From an uncultured Flavobacteriaceae bacterium (lineage in GTDB: Bacteria; Bacteroidota; Bacteroidia; Flavobacteriales; Flavobacteriaceae), in assembly GCA_947500385.1 (NCBI GenBank), contig CANMSA010000002.1, positions 124,001 through 188,000 of the forward strand: 64,000 bases of DNA, given 5' to 3'. Under the pieces are notes generated by a model that ran no database searches, was not told the origin of the DNA, and worked only from the letters and a program-made list of their open reading frames with translations. Within the stretch, counting starts at the first letter, position 1. Every line of letters starts with the position of its first letter. Below, in pieces: positions 5,853-36,580 of the stretch. A program made the position numbers and the translations under genes.

Positions 5853-6992
5853 CTATTGCGGATGCTTTTCTTTAAACTTCGAGGGTGAGGTACCGGTATA
5901 CTTTTTAAAATATCTATTAAAAGAGGACTTCGATTTAAAACCACAATCATATGCGATTCCCAATATTGATAAATGCTCGTATGTGGGAGAATTCAACCTT
6001 TTTTTTGCTTCTTCCACTCGGTATTCGTTTACGAAATCATAAAAGCTTTTATTAAAATGTTGGTTCACGATCTGTGAAAGTTGTGCCTGTGTACAATCGC
6101 ATTGACTCGCTAGCATTGATAAGGTGAGTTGCTCGTTTAGAAAAGGCTTTTGTTGCTCCATATGCCGCTGAATTTGAAGCCCTAGCACCTTTACACGGTC
6201 AGGGTTCAAGCCGGATTTTGTATAGGATGGAGTACGGTCTCCGTTTTTCTTTGATTCCCTTGTTGTTTCGTTTATGGGGATATTTGAAAAAACCGTAGAC
6301 TGATGGAATCCGTAAAAGCCAAAAGCGATCAGCATCAGACACAGACAAATACCAACAAGTGCAAACGTATCCTTTAATGGAAAAATTTGAAAGTGTACAC
6401 CACCAAAAACTAAGAAGGAGGCAAACAAGAATAACACGAAATAGGAATACACGACATAGTTCAACCAGCGAAGGTCTACCTGTTCCTCGTATGAATACAA
6501 TTGAGAAATACGCTGCTTGTGTTTTTTTAATAGCAACAGATCCCAAACACAATACAACATACCGGAAATGGCCAGCGGTACCGCGTAATATTGGGTCCAT
6601 AAAGGAGAATCAGGGCTAGGGCTAAAAAAGCCTTGGGACGCTACAAGTTCGTAGTCCGAGGTTTGTGCTGAAAAGTAGAAAACGAGGCAGTATATCGGAT
6701 AAATGCATACATGGGAAGCGATTTGCAGGAAAGAAAGTTGCCGTTTGGTAAGGGATTGTATATACAAGAACAACAGTGGAGCTCCTAACAAGGGGATGGC
6801 AAAACTTACTACTGCCCAAATCCCATACAGGGCAAAATGATAAATGGTTATTTGGTAAAATCCGATTTGTAAGAGCGATGCCGCAATCCAAGAAAGAAAC
6901 AAGTAATCTTTCAGTTGCTTGCCCTTTTTAAAAAGCAATAAAGAAAAGAGGAGTAACCCAACTCCCAATCCTGCATTTAAAACAAACTCCAT
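5853..6992 (-). CDS. AraC-family regulator with N-terminal membrane domain
   Basis: The ORF-track start at 7010 is a TTG. The ATG at 6992 (MEFVLNAGLGVG) is more plausible and gives 379 residues. About seven hydrophobic helices fill residues 5-230. A cytosolic linker and a C-terminal AraC double helix-turn-helix follow (about 275-379), ending in the typical SILGIAYDCGFKSKSSFNRYFKKYTGTSPSKFK. This architecture is common in Flavobacteriia and suggests a one-component membrane sensor. It heads a minus-strand block with the membrane protein and lipoprotein hydrolase and may control them. Its targets are unknown. Confidence 0.9.
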   Translation of the reverse strand: MEFVLNAGLGVGLLLFSLLLFKKGKQLKDYLFLSWIAASLLQIGFYQITIYHFALYGIWAVVSFAIPLLGAPLLFLYIQSLTKRQLSFLQIASHVCIYPIYCLVFYFSAQTSDYELVASQGFFSPSPDSPLWTQYYAVPLAISGMLYCVWDLLLLKKHKQRISQLYSYEEQVDLRWLNYVVYSYFVLFLFASFLVFGGVHFQIFPLKDTFALVGICLCLMLIAFGFYGFHQSTVFSNIPINETTRESKKNGDRTPSYTKSGLNPDRVKVLGLQIQRHMEQQKPFLNEQLTLSMLASQCDCTQAQLSQIVNQHFNKSFYDFVNEYRVEEAKKRLNSPTYEHLSILGIAYDCGFKSKSSFNRYFKKYTGTSPSKFKEKHPQ

Positions 6993-7046
6993 AGTTCGAT
7001 TGCAAATCAACCTACAAGCTACGTATTTATTTAAAACTTCGATTGC

Positions 7047-18727: not shown

Positions 18728-19660
18728 ATGAAAAGACTTACGACAATGGCGATTGCATTGTTTACCATGACAATCTCCTTTGGACAAACAATCGAGGAGT
18801 TGAAGGCTGAACAGGCTGCAAAAAAAGACTCTGTAGCCGCCATTCAAGCAAGAGTTGATGCACTTCAGGGGCAGATTGACGCCTTTCCTGGATGGAAGAC
18901 CGGCGCTTTCGGTACGATCGGTGCCAATATTTCTAGTTTTAGCAATTGGTATTTGCAGGGTACCCCAAACAACAATTCTGGAAATATCGGGGTAACGGTG
19001 AATGGTTTTGCCAACTTAGACCGTGAGAAGTTTTTCTGGAGAAACTCTGGAAATGTAAATTTACAATGGGTGAAATTGGATAATAAGGATGTTGATACCG
19101 ATAGTGATAGTTTCGATGGTACAACAGATGTATTCAATATTACCTCTTTATATGGATATAAGTTGAGTGAAAAGTTCGCGATCTCCGCTTTGGGAGAATA
19201 CAGAACGTCTATCATCAACAACTTTAACGATCCAGGGTATCTCGATATTGGTGTGGGTGCTACCTGGACACCGATTACCGATATGGTAGTAGTGATTCAT
19301 CCGTTGAACTATAACTTTGTATTTGCAGATAACGACGCAGTATACGAATCGTCTGCAGGTGCCAAGATCGTGGTTGATTACACCAAGCAGTTGGGAGCGG
19401 TAAATTTCAAAACAAACTTCTCTACCTTCCAAAGCTATGAAAATGGAGATTTGAGTAACTGGACGTGGATCAACTCTTTTGGATACACTTTATGGAAAGG
19501 AATCGGAGTCGGTTTTGAATTCGGCTTAAGAGGTAACAAGCAAGAAGCATTGGCCGCAGGAATCGCCAATACGCCCGAAGGAGATACGCCTCCAACCTTT
19601 GACAACGTTGATAACCCTACACAAAGCTATTGGATGTTCGGTTTGAACTATGCGTTTTAA
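18728..19660 (+). CDS. DUF3078 outer-membrane beta-barrel protein
   Basis: 310 residues. A signal peptide (cleavage after FGQT) is followed by a short coiled-coil-like segment (EELKAEQAAKKDSVAAIQARVDALQ, about 20-48) and a beta-rich body, FGTIGANISSFSNWYLQGTPNN..., typical of DUF3078. The C-terminus WMFGLNYAF ends in Phe, as many outer-membrane barrels do. It is last in the SUF-linked run and ends at a strong hairpin. Function is unknown. Confidence 0.88.
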   Translation: MKRLTTMAIALFTMTISFGQTIEELKAEQAAKKDSVAAIQARVDALQGQIDAFPGWKTGAFGTIGANISSFSNWYLQGTPNNNSGNIGVTVNGFANLDREKFFWRNSGNVNLQWVKLDNKDVDTDSDSFDGTTDVFNITSLYGYKLSEKFAISALGEYRTSIINNFNDPGYLDIGVGATWTPITDMVVVIHPLNYNFVFADNDAVYESSAGAKIVVDYTKQLGAVNFKTNFSTFQSYENGDLSNWTWINSFGYTLWKGIGVGFEFGLRGNKQEALAAGIANTPEGDTPPTFDNVDNPTQSYWMFGLNYAF

Positions 19661-19691: not shown

Positions 19692-19848
19692 AAGTAAAAC
19701 GCCCCGACAGTCTCGGGGCGTTTTTTTGTTAAGTAGGATTCGTTACATTAGGTTGCACAGTCAATAAAAATCGAACTAATAAAGTCTTATGCAGATTTGG
19801 GCAAATCCAAATACCTAAAAAGGTATTACAAACACTAAATCTTAAATA
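19692..19848 (-). ncRNA. Candidate small RNA, copy 1 of a five-copy family
   Basis: On the minus strand a control region (half-sites at 19912 and 19891, ATCGAT box at 19942) precedes a -7-like TACATTCG (19861-19854). The transcribed part is ~155 nt, contains AACCTAATG and the family motif CCTACTT, and ends in a terminator with stem ACGCCCCGA/TCGGGGCGT (19699-19721) and T-rich sequence. This hairpin also has seven Ts on the plus strand, so it can end the DUF3078 gene as well. The TSS is inferred; this is the most diverged promoter of the five. Confidence 0.55.
19699..19727 (+). terminator. Bidirectional intrinsic terminator after the DUF3078 gene
   Basis: A 9-bp GC-rich stem, loop CAGTC, then T7 on the plus strand. 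The minus strand reads the same stem followed by TTTACTTTTT, serving candidate sRNA copy 1. Confidence 0.85.
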
Positions 19849-19853
19849 CATAA

Positions 19854-19947
19854 CGAATGTAGGAGCAAATAGAGGGTGCGCTAAATTTTTGTTGTGAATA
19901 CAACCAAAGATGTTGTGAAACAAGTTAAAATGCGTTGTTTCATCGAT
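19854..19947 (-). promoter_or_regulatory. Control region of sRNA copy 1
   Basis: Plus-strand GTTGTGAA occurs at 19891 and 19912 (period 21), with ATCGAT at 19942 (30 bp from the distal site). TACATTCG on the minus strand begins 30 bp from the proximal site. The spacing matches the other copies. Confidence 0.6.
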
Positions 19948-19987: not shown

Positions 19988-20099
19988 TTTAAAAGCCCTG
20001 GTGTTACCCAGGGCTTTTACTAAGTAGGTTTGGTCTAATTTGGTTTGGTCTTTTATTTTGGCTAAGCTTTGATTTGGGAATCTAGTCTTTCGCTTTATT
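19988..20099 (-). ncRNA. Candidate small RNA, copy 2
   Basis: Minus-strand unit of ~110 nt. The -7 TAAATTTA at 20113-20106 is followed by a segment with CCAAACCTACTTAG and a terminator with an 11-bp stem AAAAGCCCTGG/CCAGGGCTTTT (19991-20018). No protein gene lies between copies 1 and 2, so this terminator has no coding gene to serve on either strand. That supports an independent RNA gene. Confidence 0.6.
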
Positions 20100-20105
20100 A
20101 CAGTG

Positions 20106-20198
20106 TAAATTTACTACCACTTTCAATGAAATTTAAATTATTGTTGTGTGTCAAGTGGAAAGTGTTGTGTATACTACCAAAGGTCTTAAATGTTCGAT
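20106..20198 (-). promoter_or_regulatory. Control region of sRNA copy 2
   Basis: GTTGTG at 20143 and 20164 (period 21); TTCGAT at 20193, 29 bp from the distal site; -7 TAAATTTA starts at 20113, 30 bp from the proximal site. No -33 TTG, consistent with an activator-dependent promoter. Confidence 0.65.
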
Positions 20199-26778: not shown

Positions 26779-27387
26779 ATGAGAATCATCATTTATTTAG
26801 TATTAAGTATCATTTTAGGAATCTTAACGGGCCATAGCCAAGAAACGACTACGACTACAACGGCCTCCACCTCTAGCGTCTCTATCTCGGTCGATGGCGG
26901 TAACGTAGATTACGAACAAAAGGGAAGAACCTACTTTTCAATCAGCGATTCTGATGATAGCTACAAGGTACGTTCAGAATTCCATGAGAGTAAGACAGAT
27001 AAAATACGGTCGTATCTGCTAGAAGAATTAGGGGATGAATACTTAAATACGATGGGCAATAAGTATAAATGGAAACGTTCGTACGCCGGTGATACGGGCT
27101 ATGAGGTAAAGTTGAGTAACGGCGCTTTGAAAATTTATCTTGACAAAGAGCTATTGTCAAATGGAATGGTGAAAAAATTCAAGACCATCACTCGAAATAT
27201 AAAGGACTATACTTCGGGAAGGTCGAGCGAAGAACGGACGGCAGCACAACAAAAAAGAGAAGACGAAAAAATAAAAAGGGAAGCGGAAAGGCTCGAACGG
27301 CAGGCTGATCAAAAAATGAGGGAAGCAGAGCGCCTCCAAAGAGAAGCAGAACGGCTCAAACGGGAGGCAAAACGAAAAAACAGATAA
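26779..27387 (+). CDS. Small secreted protein with charged helical tail, function unknown
   Basis: 202 residues. A signal peptide (to about residue 21, ...GHSQ) is followed by a Thr/Ser-rich linker, a ~110-residue domain, and from about residue 150 a highly charged helical tail of repeating EAERLxREA heptad-like units ending KREAKRKNR. The tail predicts a long single helix or coiled coil. Last gene of the two-component operon; a strong terminator follows. Confidence 0.72.
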   Translation: MRIIIYLVLSIILGILTGHSQETTTTTTASTSSVSISVDGGNVDYEQKGRTYFSISDSDDSYKVRSEFHESKTDKIRSYLLEELGDEYLNTMGNKYKWKRSYAGDTGYEVKLSNGALKIYLDKELLSNGMVKKFKTITRNIKDYTSGRSSEERTAAQQKREDEKIKREAERLERQADQKMREAERLQREAERLKREAKRKNR

Positions 27388-27388
27388 C

Positions 27389-27543
27389 AAAAAAAACCCT
27401 GACATCAACGTCAGGGTTTTTTGCAAGTAGGTCTTTAAAGATTTGGTAACAAGCGTTGTAGGTTCAGTGCTGATTTGGGGAAATCAAAGCACTGGTTGTA
27501 GGTTAGTTCCAGTGTGATTTGGGGTCGACACTATCACTTAATT
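27389..27543 (-). ncRNA. Candidate small RNA, copy 3
   Basis: Minus-strand unit of ~155 nt behind -7 TATATTTA (27557-27550). It contains three CCTAC motifs (two CCTACAACC/G and one CCTACTT) and an internal inverted repeat around CAGTGC...GCACTG. It ends in a perfect hairpin CCCTGAC-ATCAAC-GTCAGGG flanked by T8 on the minus strand. Confidence 0.62.
27391..27422 (+). terminator. Bidirectional intrinsic terminator of the two-component operon
   Basis: The perfect stem AAAAAACCCTGAC/GTCAGGGTTTTTT with loop ATCAAC has T6 on the plus strand and T8 on the minus strand. It can end both the operon (stop at 27387) and sRNA copy 3. Confidence 0.88.
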
Positions 27544-27549
27544 ACATTG

Positions 27550-27643
27550 TAAATATAGAGGGAGCCGCTAAAAAAAGTACAATTATTGTTGTCAAACAAT
27601 CGTGGGGTGTTGTGTGTCTTATGAACGGTTCTTTTTCTCGGAT
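27550..27643 (-). promoter_or_regulatory. Control region of sRNA copy 3
   Basis: GTTGTC at 27588 and GTTGTG at 27609 (period 21). The -7 TATATTTA starts 31 bp from the proximal site. A degenerate GGATGAA box lies at the usual distal position. CAACAATAAT extends the proximal half-site, as in copies 2 and 4. Confidence 0.62.
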
Positions 27644-27706
27644 GAATGACCTTTCGGACTAGAAGGTTTCTATCTTTTTCGGTACGGATTCGGAATATAG
27701 TTTCAT

Positions 27707-27865
27707 AAAAAAAGCCCCGATGGGGATCGAGGCTATTCTTTTAAAGTAGGTTTGTTACATGCAGTACTTTTAAATGGTTATATAAAGTAGGTTAATTGGT
27801 GTTTTTCTGTTTATCTCGATTCACTCTTTTAAAAGCAAATAAAAGGCTTTTGGTATACTATTGAT
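27707..27865 (-). ncRNA. Candidate small RNA, copy 4
   Basis: Minus-strand unit of ~160 nt behind a perfect -7 TATATTTG (27879-27872). Two CCTACTTT motifs are present. CATGTAACAAACCTACTTT is identical to copy 5. The terminator hairpin (27713-27734) has a CCCC loop and T7 on the minus strand. It includes a T-G pair that would be a C-A mismatch on the plus strand, so the minus strand is the structured one. No protein gene separates copies 3 and 4. Confidence 0.68.
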
Positions 27866-27871
27866 ACAGGT

Positions 27872-27964
27872 CAAATATAGAATTGAAAGAGCGTTTGTCT
27901 AAATTATTGTTGTGAACCAAGCACATTCTGTGGTGAACCGTAGCAAGGGTGTAAATTGATCGAC
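27872..27964 (-). promoter_or_regulatory. Control region of sRNA copy 4
   Basis: GTTGTG at 27909 and GTGGTG at 27930 (period 21); ATCGAC at 27959, 29 bp from the distal site; -7 TATATTTG starts at 27879, 30 bp from the proximal site. Confidence 0.65.
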
Positions 27965-28171
27965 GAAATACAATGAGATCTGCACTTTGCCTGGAGAATC
28001 TTTCCATACATGAACGGCTCCGAATGGTTTGGAAAAAAACGATCGGGGTAAGATAAGTAGCCAAGCGGAACTTGCCAATGGCTTTGCTCTTTTCTACCGA
28101 TGGGTACGCTGTTTTGAAAGATGATTGAAACGAGCGTTCCCAATTTGTCTTACAACTGTTTCCCGATTACA
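27965..28171. other. Intergenic segment without recognised features
   Basis: About 200 bp between the divergent control regions of sRNA copy 4 and the giant T9SS gene. I see no ORF with support, no hairpin and no promoter box here. Confidence 0.5.
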
Positions 28172-28235
28172 CACAACAGTTTATCGATGATACACAACAA
28201 ACACAGGGCCTCCCTCATTTATTCATATAAATTTG
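28172..28235 (+). promoter_or_regulatory. Promoter and paired CACAAC operator of the giant T9SS gene
   Basis: CACAAC at 28172 and 28193 (period 21) in plus orientation, then a perfect TAnnTTTG box (TAAATTTG, 28228-28235) starting 30 bp from the proximal site. This is the sRNA control layout in the opposite direction. An ATCGAT core lies in the spacer (28183-28188) rather than upstream. The transcript would start near 28242, about 58 nt before the ATG at 28300. Confidence 0.65.
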
Positions 28236-28299
28236 AAAGAAAAATACTACGATTGTATGTGGTATTTATTTGAGACTACGACTGACCACACCAATTTTT

Positions 28300-31200
28300 A
28301 TGGGGCGAAAAAGATTATACGAAAGTAATGTAAGTGCTTTTAAAATAGGCAAAAAAAGGAAATTAAAGCGCCGCTCCGTCTTGATGTTGGGAGTGTTGGT
28401 TTCGTTTTTTTTCTTACAAAAACTACAAGGGCAAGATTGTTCGGTAAACGCAGGGATACCCGAAACTATCTGCCAAAACAACCTTAACTATACGTTATCG
28501 GGCTCCGTAACCGGGCAAGTGCAAGGAGACCCACTTTGGTCACAAGTTGCCGGCCCACCGGTTCTCTTACAAGATCCTTCCGATTTGAACAGTGCTATTT
28601 TTGGAATGCAAGGGGGCAATAGTTACACCTTTAGACTAAGCGCTAACTGTTTCGATGGTAGTACCCAGTTTCAAGATATCGAACTTACGGTGGCACCCAT
28701 TACGATTGCAGAAACCAGTAACGATTTGTTTTCCTGCCCGGATAGATCAGGAACTATAGAAGTATATGGGAATCCTCCGGAAAACTCTGGAGAAGTAGGT
28801 ACTTGGACTTTTGAGGGCAATAACAATGCAGGAGTGATCATCCACGAACCCAATTCACCCACTACTACTATTAGTTTATTGGAAGTATATGCCGGTACGA
28901 CCACCTTACGATGGACCATTCGTGGTCCTTCGGATGCATTAGGGCAGTACTGCGAATCGTATTCTGAAATGCTTGTCACCAACTATGGGGGTAGGGCTAT
29001 TGTCAATGCGGGTCCCGACCAAAGTTTGAATAATTGCTATTCAGTTTCCCAGAGTACCGGACTAAATGCGTATTTCGGGGGGAGCAATATTAATGGGCAA
29101 CAAGGCACCTGGTCATTGGTAACCGGGCCGAGCACCCCCGTTTTTGAAGATGCAAATAGTAATACGACCCAGGTTTCTAATTTGATAGAAGGCACGTACG
29201 TATTACTATGGACGGTAGATGGCCCCTGTGTTACCGGTTCCGATACAATGACCATCACCGTTGACGAGGCTTCACAAGACGTAACAAGTGCTACCACCGA
29301 ACATCAAAGTCTTCGTTTTTGCGATAGTTCGTTTACGACCACTACCCTGTTAGGGGCACTTCCAATATATACCGGTGAAACCGTACAATGGTTGCAAGTC
29401 GAAGGTCCCGGAGTTACCACCGCCGGGGCTCCTGCTTCTATCAGCAACCCAACTAACAGTGCCACCCAGGTTTCCAATCTCGATGGTGAAAGCACCTATG
29501 TTTTCTCGTATACAATTGCCAATAATGCAACCGGTTGTTCAGATACCAGTACTGTAACGATTGCCTACTCGATAGAACCTATCGCAATTGAGGTAAATGA
29601 TGGAAATGACATTGTTCCACCATGTGGGGAAACCAAAGTATCCATTCCGTTTACCACTTCCGGGGATGCCGCAACTTCTTACAGTATCGTCAGCGGACCT
29701 CCAGGTTCCAGAATGGTAGATTCAGATGATTTCGAGGCGATTGCAAGTACTCCCTTGTCACTCGATTTTGATGTTGAAGGAACGTATACCATACTCTTTC
29801 GAAGAAAGGTAAATGGATCCCTACAGCAAGGCTGTCAGGAAGCGACTGCTTCGGTAAACGTGCATATTTCATCTATTCCAACACCTGCAAATGCCGGTAC
29901 CGGTCAAAACCTCCCTTGCAACCTTACCCAAACATCCTTAACGGGAAATGTCATTTCTTCAGGGACCTCGCTGTGGTCCCAAATAAGCGGTCCGAGTACA
30001 GCGAACATTACGGATCCTTATGCCCGAACAACACAAATAAGCGACTTAGAATCAGGAACCTATACCTTTCGATATAGCGTATCGGGCGGACAACAATGTA
30101 CCCCTGCCCAATCAGACGTGCAAATCATCGTCTCCTCCTCGGCGATTGTCGATAGCGATGCCGGAACCGATCAAACCATCTGTTTTGGCTCCCAGGTACA
30201 ATTGAATGCAAACACGCCATCGGTATCTACCCTTGAAGGTATCTGGAGTGTGAACAGTGCTCCAATTGGTACAAATTTATCTTTTGGCGACGTCAACGAC
30301 CCGAACACCATTGTATCTGGTTTTAACGACCCAAGTGAGACCTATATATTAAAGTGGACCATACGAGATCCGAACAACCCTAATTGCCCAGCCCCTAGGG
30401 AAGATACCGTAGTAATTCGTACCAATTCAACCGAGGGCCCCTCTTTTGCCAATGCGGGGCCAGACCAATGCCTGCCGGCAGGAACCACCTCCGTTGCCCT
30501 TATGGCAAATGCACCAGCGGCAGATGAAACAGGCGCATGGTCGGTAACTCCTAGCGTGGGTTTTTCATTTGCCGACCATACCCAATTCAATACTATGGGG
30601 ACGATCTCGAGCCCAGGCACCTATGTACTCACTTGGACGCTCGACAAATGTCAAACCAGTTCGGATGAGGTGGAAATTACGGTTCTTGACGGCATAGATG
30701 CTGACGCTGGCCCCGATCGCTCAAGCTGCTCCGACCAATTGACCATGGCAGCAAGTACCACTAGCGGATTAGGGGAATGGACATTGGTTTCGGGCCTTGG
30801 CGGGGTGACCATCGATGATATAAATAGCCCCACTGCAACTTTTACATTTACCTATTCGGGAGAATATGTTTATCAATGGACCGTGCGTAAAGGGAGTTGT
30901 TCGGAAACCTCGGATACGGTTCAGGTAAATATAGGGGTTCCCCCTACCGTGGCAAGTACCGGCGCAAATCAAACTATTTGTAATAGCAATTCGCTGGTAC
31001 TCAATGGGAATGCATACGATACCAATGTAGAAACCGGTTATTGGACCCTGCTTAGCGGAGCTCCGAATACCCCTACTATTGCAAATGTCAATGACCCGAT
31101 TTCCGGGGTGACCAATCTCGTTTCGGGTATTTATACGTTTCGATGGACGATTACCGGAGTCGATTTTTGTGCCCCCTCCTTCTCCGATAGTACCTACGAG

Positions 31201-34041
31201 GTTTTTGTGGTGGCCGACGCCGGCGTAGACCAGCAATTATGTGAATCTGAGAACACCATATTACAAGCGACCCAGGGTTCTACGGGAACTTGGCTTCAGA
31301 TTGATGGACCCGGAGTGAATGGAAACCCGGGAATACCCGCGACTATTTTACAAAATCCGGTAAATGGTCCGCGTGCCGAGGTAACGCTTACCACCGGTTC
31401 GGAGTACGTGTTCGAGTTTACCACTGATTATACAACTTGTGCATCAACCAGCGATCAGGTGGTAATTTCAACAAGTAATTCGTCTAGTGCAAGTCCCGAT
31501 GCCGGAGAAAATCAAGTGATTTGTAATGCCGCAGGGAATACCTCGGTAACCCTAGACGGCAATGACCCTATTATCGCTGGTTTTGATACCACTATCCCCG
31601 GGAACGAAGCTTATTGGCGGTTTGCCAGTGAACCCGAAGGGAGTATTGCCACTATCACCGACCCTACCATACATAACACGACGCTTACGAATCTTGTTAC
31701 TCCGGGAATCTATATTTTGGAATGGAACTTTTCCGCCCAAAATTGTACCGATGAGGCCGACGTAGTTCGAATAGAGGTTTTTGAACCCTACGATGCTATT
31801 GCAGGACCAGATCAGCCGAATGCCTGCCCGGCCTCCGTAAATCTAAATGCTGTTGCGCCACCCTTGGGAATTGGAGAATGGCGTCTTGTTACGGATCCTT
31901 CGGGTGGGGCCATTGTAATAGAAAGCCCCAATTCCCCTACTTCAAGTCTATCAAATGTGACTGCGTTGGGAACCTATGTCTTTGAATGGACCGTCACCAA
32001 CGGAGCCTTTACCTCGGGAAGTTGTGCAAATGCTACGGACCGTGTTGCCATTACGTTCACCGGGGAAGCGCCCGATATGCCAGAAGCTGGGTTGGATCAA
32101 GCATTGTGCAGTCTAGATCAAACAAGCTTGGATGCTATGCCTTTGTCGGTGGGAACCGGAACCTGGTCGCAAATCTCGGGCCCTGGAATAACAGTGCCAG
32201 GTGCGTTGGCGACGATTGCTACGATAGATGACCCTAAAACGCGGATTACCAATTTAGAGGCGGGTACCTATGAGTTTGTTTGGACGAGTAGTAATGGAGG
32301 ATGTTCGTTTTCCGACGCCGTGACCATCATGGTTTTTGACCAGGCAAATTCGGTGGAAGCCGGCGCCGATCAGACATTGGGGGAGTTCGATATTGTGCAG
32401 TTGAACGCAGCACCTACCATGATTGGAGAAGGAAGTTGGAGCCAAGTTTCGGGGCCCACACCTGCAAATTTTATCGCTGCAAATGACCCGACCACCCCGG
32501 TTTTGGGAACCGCGGTTGGCGTATACGTGTTTGAATGGACTATTACCAACGGAACCTGCAACCCTATATCGGACCGTGTTACCATAACATTCGAGGGGAA
32601 TGCCGACTTAGAACTTACGAAAGAAGTAACTCCCGAGCAAGCACAGGCAGGAGATACGGTACGGTTTACCATCTCGGTCTACAATAATGAAACGAATGGT
32701 TCTGCAGATGCTACAGGAGTTTCAATTGTTGACATGGTGCCGTCCGGATACCTGGTTTTACCAGAAAGTATCAGTGCGAATGGAATGCATAATCAAGACG
32801 AATCCATTATTTGGTCGAACCTCGAAATTGCCAATGGCGCCACCTTTGAACTTAGTTTTGAAGCAATCGTTAACGTAGGGGGAATCTATACGAATTCTGC
32901 TGCTGTAGTTGCCTCTGACCAAGAAGATAGGGACTCCGATCCCGGGAATGATCTTATTGGGGAAGATGACCAAGATACTGCCAGTGTGTTAACGGCTGAC
33001 TTGAGTTTGGAAAAAACGGCCAGTAGCTCCGAAGCCGTTGCAGCGGATACGGTTACATTTATTCTTACGGTCACCAATGATGGAGATGAGATTGCCACCG
33101 GGGTAGGGGTGCAAGACATGCTTCCCATTGGTTTTGCCACTGTAACCAACATTAGCGACCTAGGGGTACTCACAGAAAGTGATAGGGTCGTGTGGACGGG
33201 GTTGACAGTACTACCGGGCGAATCGATCGAACTGAGTTTCGATGCGATAGTACAGGCCTATACAGGGGGCGAGAACGAATATTTGAATAGAGCGGAGATT
33301 ATTGCAAGTGACCTTTTAGACCCCGATAGTACGCCCAACAATGGTACGGAAGCATTAAATGAGGACGATGAAGCACGCTTTGAAGTTCGTTTTCCATCTA
33401 CCGACCTAGGCCTAACCAAAAGTGTGGACAACGCGAACCCCGGAATCGGGGAAGCGGTGGTGTTTTCCATTACCGTTTCAAATTTGGGTGATACAGATGC
33501 AAGTACCATAGGTATTGAGGAACTACTTCCCTCGGGATACCGCTTTGTAAATGCCCAATCGACGGAAGGTAGTTATGATGGGGTTTCAAATTTCTGGAGT
33601 ATCCCGTTACTAGAGGCCGGCAAGAATGCTACCTTAGAACTTACCGTTGAAGTATTGAAGACGGGAACCTATCTCAATGAGGTGCAATTGGTTTATTTGG
33701 ATCAAATTGATTTAAACGACACCAACAATAGCGCAACGGCAAACCTCGTTCCCCGATGTTTGCTGGTGTATAACAAGTTTTCTCCGAACGGGGACGGTAT
33801 CAACGATTTCTTTAAAATTGATTGTCTCTCGGATTATCCCAATAGTGTGCTTACCATTTTTGACCGTTGGGGGAAAAAACTGTATGAGGCGAAAGACTAC
33901 CAGAATAATTGGCAGGGAATTTCTGAAGTAAATGCGACCGTAAATGCGGGGGAAAGGCTTCCCGAAGGTACCTATTATTATTCCCTTGATTTGGGAGATG
34001 GTTCCAAGCCCATTGTAGATTGGCTTTACTTAAAACATTAA
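28300..34041 (+). CDS. Giant cell-surface repeat protein with T9SS type-B (gliding motility-associated) C-terminal domain
   Basis: I use the ATG at 28300 (MGRKRLYESN, 1913 residues); the ORF-track start is a TTG. A long N-region and hydrophobic core form the signal peptide, ending LQGQ. Residues ~45-1430 are about a dozen PKD/Ig-like repeats of ~100 residues, each opening with (N/D)AG.DQ..C and containing W..VSGP and G.Y.F.W. Three DUF11 domains follow (starting about 1433, 1565 and 1700; LELTKEV, LSLEKTA, LGLTKSV). The CHU_C/type-B sorting domain ends the protein (KFSPNGDGINDFF...GTYYYSLDLGD). It is exported by T9SS, probably as an adhesin, and a PorP/SprF gene follows 34 bp later. Confidence 0.93.
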   Translation: MGRKRLYESNVSAFKIGKKRKLKRRSVLMLGVLVSFFFLQKLQGQDCSVNAGIPETICQNNLNYTLSGSVTGQVQGDPLWSQVAGPPVLLQDPSDLNSAIFGMQGGNSYTFRLSANCFDGSTQFQDIELTVAPITIAETSNDLFSCPDRSGTIEVYGNPPENSGEVGTWTFEGNNNAGVIIHEPNSPTTTISLLEVYAGTTTLRWTIRGPSDALGQYCESYSEMLVTNYGGRAIVNAGPDQSLNNCYSVSQSTGLNAYFGGSNINGQQGTWSLVTGPSTPVFEDANSNTTQVSNLIEGTYVLLWTVDGPCVTGSDTMTITVDEASQDVTSATTEHQSLRFCDSSFTTTTLLGALPIYTGETVQWLQVEGPGVTTAGAPASISNPTNSATQVSNLDGESTYVFSYTIANNATGCSDTSTVTIAYSIEPIAIEVNDGNDIVPPCGETKVSIPFTTSGDAATSYSIVSGPPGSRMVDSDDFEAIASTPLSLDFDVEGTYTILFRRKVNGSLQQGCQEATASVNVHISSIPTPANAGTGQNLPCNLTQTSLTGNVISSGTSLWSQISGPSTANITDPYARTTQISDLESGTYTFRYSVSGGQQCTPAQSDVQIIVSSSAIVDSDAGTDQTICFGSQVQLNANTPSVSTLEGIWSVNSAPIGTNLSFGDVNDPNTIVSGFNDPSETYILKWTIRDPNNPNCPAPREDTVVIRTNSTEGPSFANAGPDQCLPAGTTSVALMANAPAADETGAWSVTPSVGFSFADHTQFNTMGTISSPGTYVLTWTLDKCQTSSDEVEITVLDGIDADAGPDRSSCSDQLTMAASTTSGLGEWTLVSGLGGVTIDDINSPTATFTFTYSGEYVYQWTVRKGSCSETSDTVQVNIGVPPTVASTGANQTICNSNSLVLNGNAYDTNVETGYWTLLSGAPNTPTIANVNDPISGVTNLVSGIYTFRWTITGVDFCAPSFSDSTYEVFVVADAGVDQQLCESENTILQATQGSTGTWLQIDGPGVNGNPGIPATILQNPVNGPRAEVTLTTGSEYVFEFTTDYTTCASTSDQVVISTSNSSSASPDAGENQVICNAAGNTSVTLDGNDPIIAGFDTTIPGNEAYWRFASEPEGSIATITDPTIHNTTLTNLVTPGIYILEWNFSAQNCTDEADVVRIEVFEPYDAIAGPDQPNACPASVNLNAVAPPLGIGEWRLVTDPSGGAIVIESPNSPTSSLSNVTALGTYVFEWTVTNGAFTSGSCANATDRVAITFTGEAPDMPEAGLDQALCSLDQTSLDAMPLSVGTGTWSQISGPGITVPGALATIATIDDPKTRITNLEAGTYEFVWTSSNGGCSFSDAVTIMVFDQANSVEAGADQTLGEFDIVQLNAAPTMIGEGSWSQVSGPTPANFIAANDPTTPVLGTAVGVYVFEWTITNGTCNPISDRVTITFEGNADLELTKEVTPEQAQAGDTVRFTISVYNNETNGSADATGVSIVDMVPSGYLVLPESISANGMHNQDESIIWSNLEIANGATFELSFEAIVNVGGIYTNSAAVVASDQEDRDSDPGNDLIGEDDQDTASVLTADLSLEKTASSSEAVAADTVTFILTVTNDGDEIATGVGVQDMLPIGFATVTNISDLGVLTESDRVVWTGLTVLPGESIELSFDAIVQAYTGGENEYLNRAEIIASDLLDPDSTPNNGTEALNEDDEARFEVRFPSTDLGLTKSVDNANPGIGEAVVFSITVSNLGDTDASTIGIEELLPSGYRFVNAQSTEGSYDGVSNFWSIPLLEAGKNATLELTVEVLKTGTYLNEVQLVYLDQIDLNDTNNSATANLVPRCLLVYNKFSPNGDGINDFFKIDCLSDYPNSVLTIFDRWGKKLYEAKDYQNNWQGISEVNATVNAGERLPEGTYYYSLDLGDGSKPIVDWLYLKH

Positions 34042-34075: not shown

Positions 34076-34996
34076 ATGAAAAATTTTTTTCTATCAATAC
34101 TGCTAGTGCTAGTCCTGCTTAACATCTTCGTGCTTACCGCGCAGCAAGAACCACATTTCGCTCAATACACCTATAATACGATGACCGTAAACCCTGCCTA
34201 TGCCGGGTCAAAAGAATACTTATCGGCAATTGGGATGCATCGTTCGCAATGGGTAGGGGTAAACGGCGCTCCGACCACCCAATTTGTTAGCCTGCATGGG
34301 CCTACAGAAAGCACCGTGGGCTGGGGTATCGGGATTTCCAATGAAGCTTTGGGGCCTGTGAACAATTTGGTATTCGATGCTAATTTTTCGCATACGGTTC
34401 CGTTACATCATAAAAACAAGAAACTCTCTTTCGGGTTAAGGGCCGGGGCGCGTGTGTTCGATGTGGATTTTTCCAAAGGGCTTGCAGAGAACGAGGACAT
34501 TGCTTTTCAAACGAATATTCAAAATAAGTTTTTGGGTAGTATCGGTGCCGGAGTCTATTATAGATCCGAAAAGACCTATGTGGGTTTATCGGTACCCAAT
34601 TTCTTTACCCAAGAATACTATGATCCGTTAGAACAAGAGATAGATGTGGCGCGCTTGCATTTCTTTTTGATCGCAGGGACGGTTTTTGAATGGAACAAAG
34701 AGGTGCTGCTGAAACCTTCAATTTTCTCAAAATGGGAAACGAATAATGATTGGGTGGCCGATATTGCGCTAAGCGCCTTGTTCAAAGAAACGTTGAATGT
34801 AGGCCTCGCCTATCGTCTTGGCGACTCGATTGCCGCATTGCTAGGGGTACAGATAGTCCCTAGCATTCATATAGGATATTCGTATAACCTAAACAACAAA
34901 GAGTTGAAAGGCTATAATTTCGGCACGCACGAAATCTTGATTCGGTATGACTTTAAGAACGGAAAAACACGCTTTAATGCCCCTCGTTTTTTTTAA
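34076..34996 (+). CDS. PorP/SprF family T9SS outer-membrane protein
   Basis: 306 residues. Signal peptide, then QQEPHFAQYTYNTMTVNPAYAGSKEYLSAIGMHRSQWVGVNGAPTTQ, the unmistakable PorP/SprF opening, followed by beta-barrel strands. SprF-like proteins are needed for secretion and surface attachment of type-B CTD cargo encoded beside them. Here the cargo is the giant protein directly upstream, with only a 34-bp gap, so the two are almost certainly an operon. Confidence 0.95.
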   Translation: MKNFFLSILLVLVLLNIFVLTAQQEPHFAQYTYNTMTVNPAYAGSKEYLSAIGMHRSQWVGVNGAPTTQFVSLHGPTESTVGWGIGISNEALGPVNNLVFDANFSHTVPLHHKNKKLSFGLRAGARVFDVDFSKGLAENEDIAFQTNIQNKFLGSIGAGVYYRSEKTYVGLSVPNFFTQEYYDPLEQEIDVARLHFFLIAGTVFEWNKEVLLKPSIFSKWETNNDWVADIALSALFKETLNVGLAYRLGDSIAALLGVQIVPSIHIGYSYNLNNKELKGYNFGTHEILIRYDFKNGKTRFNAPRFF

Positions 34997-35014
34997 AACG
35001 CACAGGGGTGGTAT

Positions 35015-35144
35015 AAAAAAACCCCGGCTGGGGAGCCGAGGTGATTTTTTAAAGTAGGTTTGTTACATGCGCATTTAATTTTTTAAAAGCTGTTTCGGTT
35101 AAGTTCAAGCGATTTGTTTTGGGAAAAAAGGCTAACGCTTTATA
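35015..35144 (-). ncRNA. Candidate small RNA, copy 5
   Basis: Minus-strand unit of ~130 nt behind -7 TATATTTA (35158-35151). It contains CATGTAACAAACCTACTTT, identical to copy 4. The terminator stem ACCTCGGCT/AGCCGGGGT with CCCC loop is followed by T7. It pairs fully on the minus strand (one T-G) but has a C-A mismatch on the plus strand. It lies antisense to nothing, downstream of the PorP/SprF gene. Confidence 0.68.
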
Positions 35145-35150
35145 ACACTG

Positions 35151-35244
35151 TAAATATATTTCCGATTTTCCGATAGGGATACACTATTGTTGTGAACAGG
35201 CCCTTTTTTGTTGTGAAAAATACAAGAGGTTCAAAATAATCGAT
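35151..35244 (-). promoter_or_regulatory. Control region of sRNA copy 5
   Basis: GTTGTGAA at 35189 and 35210 (period 21); ATCGAT at 35239, 29 bp from the distal site; -7 TATATTTA starts at 35158, 31 bp from the proximal site. This is the cleanest example of the arrangement. Confidence 0.7.
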
Positions 35245-35368: not shown

Positions 35369-36580
35369 TCAATATTGATCTAAGTTTTCAGGATACAGGA
35401 AGTTATTATACGGGAAACGGGTCACATGTATATCACGTACCTCTGAATAAACCCGCTTTCTAAAATCGTCAAGATTCTCTTTGTTCAAGGCAGAAATAAA
35501 CAAAGCATTGTCGCCGACACGTTGCATCCATGTTCGTTTCCAGTCTTCTAGCGTAAAGTGTATTGCTGTTTTTTCGGTGATAAGGTCGTCCTCGGCAATG
35601 GTTTCCGGAAGGTATTGATCTATTTTATTAAAGACCATGATCGTATTCTTATCAGCGCTATCTATTTCATCCAGAATTTTGTTCACCGAATCAATATGTT
35701 CTTCGAATTGTTCATGTGAAATATCTACCACATGTAACAATAAATCGGCTTCACGTACCTCGTCCAAGGTACTTTTAAAACTTTCTACCAACTGTGTGGG
35801 AAGTTTTCGTATAAAACCTACGGTGTCGCTCAACAAGAACGGCAGGTTCCCGATCACGACTTTTCGAACGGTAGTATCTAAGGTGGCGAATAATTTATTC
35901 TCGGCAAAGACATCACTTTTGCTCACTACATTCATTAAAGTAGACTTACCAACGTTCGTATACCCTACTAGGGCCACCCGGACCAAAGCGCCGCGATTGC
36001 CGCGCTGGGTCTCCATTTGCCGGTCTATTTTCAATAACTTCTTTTTCAGCAGGGTAATGCGGTCGCGCACAATACGCCGATCCGTTTCAATTTCGGTCTC
36101 CCCTGGGCCACGCATTCCAATACCCCCTTTTTGACGTTCCAAATGCGTCCACAAACCGGTTAGCCGTGGCAATAGATACTCGTACTGTGCCAACTCTACT
36201 TGGGTTCTTGAGTAACTGGTCTGCGCCCGTTGGGCAAAAATATCAAGAATCAGACCGGTGCGATCCAAAATTTTACAGCGCAACTGTTTTTCAATGTTTC
36301 GTTGCTGGGCAGGACTCAGTTCATCATCAAAAATTACAGAACCAATTTCGTTTTCTTCAACATATGCCTCTATTTCTTGCATCTTACCACTACCGATCAT
36401 GGTCTTGGGATTCGGAACGTTCACGCGTTGAACAAAACGCTTGCATACCTCTCCGCCGGCGGTAAAGGTTAAAAAGGCAAGTTCATCTAAATACTCGGTC
36501 ACTTTTTGCTCGTTCTGCTGCTGGTTGATGACCCCGATCAGGACCGTCTTTTCATATTTTGTCGTTTTCTTTTCTAGCAT
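35369..36580 (-). CDS. hflX: Ribosome-associated GTPase HflX
   Basis: 403 residues. HflX is a GTPase that splits stalled ribosomes under stress. The N-terminal HflX domain (ELAFLTFTAGGEVCKRF..., IFDDELSPAQQRNIEK, LDRTGLILDIFAQRAQT) precedes the family signature QKGGIGMRGPGETEIETDRR. G-domain motifs are G1 GYTNVGKST, G3 DTVGF and G4 NKID. The ATG at 36578-36580 is clear. It is monocistronic and convergent with sRNA copy 5 and the T9SS operon side. Confidence 0.96.
   Translation of the reverse strand: MLEKKTTKYEKTVLIGVINQQQNEQKVTEYLDELAFLTFTAGGEVCKRFVQRVNVPNPKTMIGSGKMQEIEAYVEENEIGSVIFDDELSPAQQRNIEKQLRCKILDRTGLILDIFAQRAQTSYSRTQVELAQYEYLLPRLTGLWTHLERQKGGIGMRGPGETEIETDRRIVRDRITLLKKKLLKIDRQMETQRGNRGALVRVALVGYTNVGKSTLMNVVSKSDVFAENKLFATLDTTVRKVVIGNLPFLLSDTVGFIRKLPTQLVESFKSTLDEVREADLLLHVVDISHEQFEEHIDSVNKILDEIDSADKNTIMVFNKIDQYLPETIAEDDLITEKTAIHFTLEDWKRTWMQRVGDNALFISALNKENLDDFRKRVYSEVRDIHVTRFPYNNFLYPENLDQY

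Follow-up and report, generated by a model that had tools for sequence, protein, structure and literature searches.

A giant surface protein operon in an uncultured flavobacterium has the same promoter layout as five predicted small RNAs (sRNAs) encoded nearby, and this raises the question of which regulator joins them. The window, which is the whole 64,000-nucleotide stretch of DNA that was analysed, contains at 28172-28198 on the plus strand a pair of direct repeats placed at a fixed distance from a promoter box. This pair very probably serves as operator for a LytTR response regulator whose gene lies outside the window, at C3:256005-256754, and which would govern an autoregulated set of adhesins and sRNAs. 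The motif, its geometry and conservation, its linkage to the regulator gene and its co-occurrence with that gene are documented at the level of sequence; binding, activation and phosphotransfer are inferred.

An operator shared by an adhesin operon and five predicted RNAs

Both half-sites are exactly CACAAC (28172-28177 and 28193-28198, plus strand), with a period of 21 bp. The −7 box TAAATTTG follows at 28228-28235, so that the full layout, CACAAC-N15-CACAAC-N29-TAAATTTG, occupies 28172-28235 without a mismatch to the full pattern. The spacing of the half-sites and the TAnnTTTG box reported in an earlier note on this DNA are thus borne out by exact coordinates; the distance of 30 bp given there reflects the fact that 29 bases intervene and the T of TA is base 30 past the half-site. 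One period further upstream, at 28151-28156 (+), there is a possible third half-site, TACAAC, imperfect by one mismatch. A gapless matrix derived from other species scored the operator at 28.6, and a promoter model, described below, matched it with E 4.8e-5 over positions 1-64. Downstream lies the gene for a giant T9SS surface protein (28300-34041, +) with five PKD domains, three DUF11 domains and a CHU_C type IX signal. The list of open reading frames gives its start as TTG at 28270, but an in-frame ATG at 28300 is the more probable start. The second gene of the operon encodes a PorP/SprF family protein (34076-34996, +; PF11751, E 1.6e-74).

The promoters of the five sRNAs, all predicted to belong to one family termed A, are on the minus strand. 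Operator and −7 box of s1 span 20106-20169, and those of s2 span 19854-19917, with half-site pairs at 20169-20143 and 19917-19891 and gaps of 29 to TAAATTTA and TACATTCG, respectively. The RNA s1 is predicted at 19990-20105, with a Rho-independent terminator at its end, and s2 at 19695-19853, with a terminator at 19696-19724; s2 is of a TACATTCG subtype that also adjoins the DUF3078 gene in other genomes. The promoter of s3 (27872-27935, pair at 27935-27909, gap 29 to TATATTTG; RNA at 27705-27871) has CACCAC as its distal half-site and is the top model match in the window (E 3e-8). That of s4 (27550-27614, pair at 27614-27588, gap 30 to TATATTTA; RNA at 27386-27549, terminator 27391-27422) has GACAAC as its proximal half-site and is weak in the model (E 0.72). 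The promoter of s5 (35151-35215, pair at 35215-35189) again has a gap of 30 to TATATTTA, and its RNA is predicted at 35013-35150. Five minus-strand promoters with a shared layout, as first described, are therefore present, with gaps of 29-30 and two inexact half-sites.

It had been argued that six promoters of the same geometry are unlikely to arise by chance, and counts of exact pairs exclude chance as their origin. The window has 4 exact CACAAC-N15-CACAAC pairs against 0.01 expected, and the 6.03-Mb genome has 9, against 1 for the reversed control; nearly half of the genome's exact pairs thus fall in a part of the window about 15 kb long. Gap and period scans covered 1.18 Mb from further contigs of this genome, with the window excluded. 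The distance from CACAAC to a −7-like box peaked at exactly 29 (7 matches, compared to a mean of 0.74 per gap over gaps of 10-55), and the repeat period of the half-site peaked at 21. The earlier note would have been refuted by a background frequency of the pair without linkage to −7 boxes, and this check on 1.18 Mb did not give that outcome. With a gap of 29 and up to three mismatches, a genome scan for the full pattern gave 27 matches vs. 10 in the control. At a gap of 30 there were 15 vs. 12, so only s4, s5 and a site at C2:78728 are considered credible there. Three exact pairs (C19:50244, within a coding sequence, C1:263288 and C30:31317) were rejected as targets since they have no −7 box at 29 or 30.

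Models built from regulator loci of other species gave the same picture. The gapless matrix found 5 sites scoring at least 14 in the 64-kb window and 7 in 1.18 Mb, and its reversed control had no match of 10 or more. A held-out model was made from 67 promoters at regulator loci of other species, with the closest relatives left out. Its top five matches in the window were 27935−, 35215−, 19917−, 28172+ and 20149− (E 3e-8 to 0.0044), and in the genome from which the window comes it ranked first the promoter of a sensor kinase gene (E 3.3e-9), which adjoins the candidate regulator.

The candidate regulator and its rivals

The window has no LytTR gene, as had been noted before. The candidate at G000:C3:256005-256754 encodes a REC-LytTR response regulator of 250 amino acids (PF00072, E 1.4e-20; PF04397, E 1.2e-17). 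One operator site lies about 80 bp past the end of its gene, and a second precedes the next gene, which encodes a TPR/HisKA_2/HATPase sensor kinase. Orthologs of the regulator are highly conserved (80 loci retrieved, 88-99% identity; the one in Pelagihabitans pacificus is 96% identical), and under a slightly looser rule the operator is present at 75 of the 80 loci. Nearly all of these sites are on the same strand, just downstream of the regulator and before an sRNA of a second family, B, and/or the TPR-HisKA_2 kinase. In the 955 kb around the 80 loci, 98 pairs with at most one mismatch were found vs. 12 in the control. Almost all of the 98 share the strand of the regulator gene, lie no more than about 1.4 kb downstream of it and have the box at a gap of 29.

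LytTR operators consist of direct repeats of 9-11 nt with spacers of 11-13 nt (PMC4847170), and the conserved CACAACAA-type direct repeats at the regulator loci, with their 21-bp period, fit this description. The REC and LytTR domains and the linkage of the operator to the regulator gene are likewise those expected of a LytTR two-component regulon. In the aligned promoters the box TAnnTTTG stands at a fixed distance, as expected of the flavobacterial sigma-A −7 box, which is placed at −12 to −5 (PMC9723704), and the spacer shows no conserved −33 element in the alignment.

The regulator and the motif occur in the same genomes. Among 301 Flavobacteriaceae genomes, 50 have both, 8 the regulator only, 7 the motif only and 236 neither (Fisher p=1e-40); by genus the tally is 43/5/6/183. 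Because some sites sit at the regulator locus itself, the test was repeated without them, and a distant site was found in at least 43 of the 58 regulator-positive genomes, counted among the sites listed, vs. 7 of the 243 negative ones (p=7e-32). In 198 Flavobacteriales genomes, with an ortholog threshold of E<=1e-60 chosen beforehand, the ortholog and the exact motif were found in the same five (5/5 vs. 0/193). The Fisher p-values overstate the evidence, since the genomes are related and phylogeny was ignored. Of the eight genomes with the regulator only, seven have a recognisable variant of the site next to it; none was found there in the eighth, the diverged G255 (59% identity). Most motif-only genomes look like chance, with tandem repeats or wrong flanks, as judged from the listed sequences, and the sole convincing one is G355. 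In this 1.7-Mb genome, which has no ortholog, a different REC-LytTR gene has the operator immediately upstream (L281, G355:C31).

In the proposed mechanism the two direct-repeat half-sites, with a consensus of about TTnCACAACAAnAWTT and a period of 21 bp, are contacted by a LytTR dimer from one side of the helix. The probable partner would be the TPR/HisKA_2/HATPase kinase encoded by the gene following the regulator, a pairing that rests on adjacency. The proximal half-site would fall just ahead of RNA polymerase, at about −47 to −42, and the distal one at about −68/−63, at a sigma-A type promoter with a −7 box and without a conserved −33 element. The regulator would then activate its own kinase gene, giant CHU_C adhesins and their PorP/SprF and OmpA partners, and further a PAS kinase, an ECF sigma factor, small proteins and the two multicopy sRNA families.

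The earlier note had suggested LytTR- or AraC-type recognition of the 21-bp repeat and had named the AraC-type gene at 5853 as an untested candidate. The LytTR alternative is now strongly favored by the linkage at 75 of 80 loci and by co-occurrence across genomes, whereas the AraC alternative is rejected. AraC-family proteins are able to recognise direct half-sites with a spacing of about 21 bp, and one such gene (5853-7010) sits in the window. A close match to it, however, is found in only 4 of the 301 genomes, its own included (49-100% identity, E<=1e-116; all others at most 38%), compared to 57 with the motif; the relatives in the 3 of 300 other genomes have 49-56% identity. Nor was an AraC gene noticed next to a site at the regulator loci examined, and an AraC-type regulator can practically be dismissed. 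A different doubt comes from the genome itself, which encodes 46 LytTR proteins, so that one of the other 45 could bind a real and shared operator of which the linked gene is merely a conserved neighbour. The site in G355 speaks for such a reading; the tight linkage of regulator and site and their near one-to-one co-occurrence speak against it, and it is judged unlikely. As an observation apart, 46 LytTR proteins looks like a large set for one 6-Mb genome.

Orientation and distance alone leave the sign of regulation undetermined, and the regulator might instead block adhesins and sRNAs until a signal arrives. Repression has no direct support, and it is given little credence: the sites occupy about −42 to −68, beyond the upstream edge of the polymerase footprint, close to the activator arrangements of AgrA and VirR, and this position, together with the absence of a conserved −33 element, favors activation.

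Two predicted RNA families and known counterparts

Family A comprises the five copies in the window and, elsewhere, single or tandem copies in many genera. Its members have a conserved 5′ end, CAgTGTAATTAAGTGATAGTGTTGACCCCAAATCG, repeated CCCAAATC, CTTAACC and ACCTACTT elements, and a terminator. RNAalifold gave no conserved pairs for the RNA body, the only part analysed, with some 3′ ends cut before the terminator. Since no conserved helix was found, pairing through the repeated C-rich seeds is inferred to be the likeliest mode, and this largely unstructured RNA would probably use several seeds to pair with its targets. Members of family B share a 35-nt core, TTTTTTCATTTTCATATAGTGTTCTCGTAAAAGAG, that is almost invariant; this core is present at 35 of the 80 regulator loci, and the genome analysed here has it in four copies. 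Perfect antisense matches to this core were confined to its own four copies, with two further places at two mismatches, and no convincing sRNA targets were found; the transcription and targets of the sRNAs remain inferences.

A family A locus between genes for an HflX-type GTPase and a DUF3078 protein is conserved in L173 (G133), L180 and L181, where the flanking genes were recognised by eye from similarity to the proteins of the window. The window has the same flanks, at 35369-36580 and 18728-19660, respectively, but s5 is separated from s1 and s2 by about 15 kb with DUF5916, adhesin and PorP genes together with s3 and s4. The flanks being adjacent elsewhere and about 15 kb apart here, an insertion is suggested: the giant adhesin/PorP operon, which carries the same operator, seems to have entered what was originally an sRNA locus. 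It is also conceivable that the predicted sRNAs are attenuated leaders, or junk bearing the motif, rather than independent RNAs. There are no RNA-seq data on them here, and in some genomes a related leader precedes a 34-aa ORF. Each, however, has a promoter, a conserved body and a terminator; family A is kept at the HflX/DUF3078 locus in several genomes, with tandem copies elsewhere, and the family B core is nearly invariant over 35 nt in its 35 loci. This explanation is accordingly judged very improbable.

A close parallel is VirS/VirR of Clostridium perfringens, with its VirR boxes and VR-RNA, VirT and VirU. It also has a LytTR-type regulator and paired direct repeats; the two VirR boxes stand upstream of the promoter at a distance that is fixed and helically phased, and the system directly drives secreted surface and virulence proteins and several regulatory RNAs (PMC2838878). 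The flavobacterial system differs in half-site, kinase type (TPR-HisKA_2), promoter class (−7 TAnnTTTG) and phylum, and it has two multicopy sRNA families in place of three single RNAs. The agr system of Staphylococcus aureus, with AgrA and RNAIII, likewise joins a LytTR regulator to paired direct repeats that lie near −60, and this regulator controls both its own operon and an effector RNA (PMC4227749). Many sRNA copies and T9SS adhesin targets set the flavobacterial system apart; no AgrB/D-like peptide system was seen, with no agrB or agrD noticed among the neighbouring ORFs listed at the regulator loci, and on present evidence the system falls outside the agr family. To the extent that sequence alone can tell, it has the hallmark of VirSR and agr, the same operator before genes for surface or secreted proteins and before predicted regulatory RNAs.

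Other likenesses are partial. YpdB, a LytTR protein of E. coli, uses a direct repeat of about 10 nt with a spacer of 11-13 nt and a period of about 21 bp; its half-site, GGCATTTCAT, is different, and the portion of the article that was available describes no sRNA regulon (PMC4847170). FopS of Bacteroides thetaiotaomicron is a large paralogous family of mostly single-stranded, terminator-ended sRNAs, also in Bacteroidota, but it is reported to use canonical sigma promoters and to have no known dedicated regulator (PMC11697453), unlike family A with its proposed LytTR operator. In PorXY-SigP, two-component control is tied to type IX secretion, but PorX is a separate regulator and its targets, in the incomplete source available, are the secretion machinery, not adhesins and sRNAs. 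No published LytTR regulon in Bacteroidetes matching this system was found in the literature searched, nor were the regulon, the operator or either sRNA family; Rfam gave no family at the gathering threshold in the window or in the seven loci searched.

With somewhat better than even confidence, the system can be viewed as a flavobacterial counterpart of VirSR/agr, a TPR-kinase/LytTR switch for gliding and adhesion proteins and for sRNAs that reprogram the envelope, with the adhesin operon placed in an ancestral sRNA locus. If true, many related sRNAs of two new families would act on the envelope post-transcriptionally alongside giant adhesins, under a switch conserved across dozens of genera. 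How marine flavobacteria control their T9SS adhesin and PorP/SprF operons is for the most part not known. The analysis supplies a defined operator, names a specific regulator and kinase as candidates, and adds two sRNA families that are conserved; the adhesion programme gains a candidate master regulator, and the logic of a LytTR regulator plus effector RNA, known from Gram-positive pathogens, would extend to Bacteroidota.

Other promoters with the operator

The genes in the window account for only a share of the regulon, which has roughly 20-30 promoters. In the same genome and across dozens of genera the operator precedes other adhesin/PorP operons and the two sRNA families, which supports the original idea that one regulator links such an operon to several RNAs. 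Among the genes behind good sites are an adhesin-PorP-OmpA operon (C1:662537), a HYR/Ig_7 adhesin (C2:3838, minus strand), a 3379-aa DUF11/CHU_C protein (C8:134723), another CHU_C protein (C30:10568, minus) and a PorP-OmpA pair (C30:35084, minus). Sites also precede a PAS kinase with a REC protein (C4:73467), an ECF sigma factor (C3:318069) and the four copies of family B (C3:256834+, C4:67052+, C6:88025− and C8:221351−; L017, L019, L021 and L031). The genome encodes 34 CHU_C proteins, and the genes for six are directly downstream of a site when weaker sites are counted (C2:157763, C1:665426, C8:144713, C30:8143, C17:92977 and C1:345898). Weaker sites with only a good proximal half-site may not be targets.

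The operator ahead of the PAS histidine kinase gene is kept in three genera (L176, L179 and L142), and in at least two of these loci a REC gene follows; from this conserved arrangement, a further signalling pair may belong to the regulon. At C17:80670+ (L166), before a 4175-aa CHU_C protein, the half-sites are spaced by 22 bp, not 21 bp. Two tandem tiny ORFs, beginning MLYDTYGEEYLNFLQDLNEIL and MAKQNPDNAAYLNFIEDLNEIL, stand behind an operator at C6:78219+ (L020). A protein of about 34 amino acids, MEAx(2)NH...EIQVYKNDFFSGxVxLxxKLFML, is encoded behind the operator at C2:78728+ (L038), L174:17298−, L178:2733− and in L254; its genes have a family-A-like leader, and in three cases a CoA-transferase-like gene adjoins.
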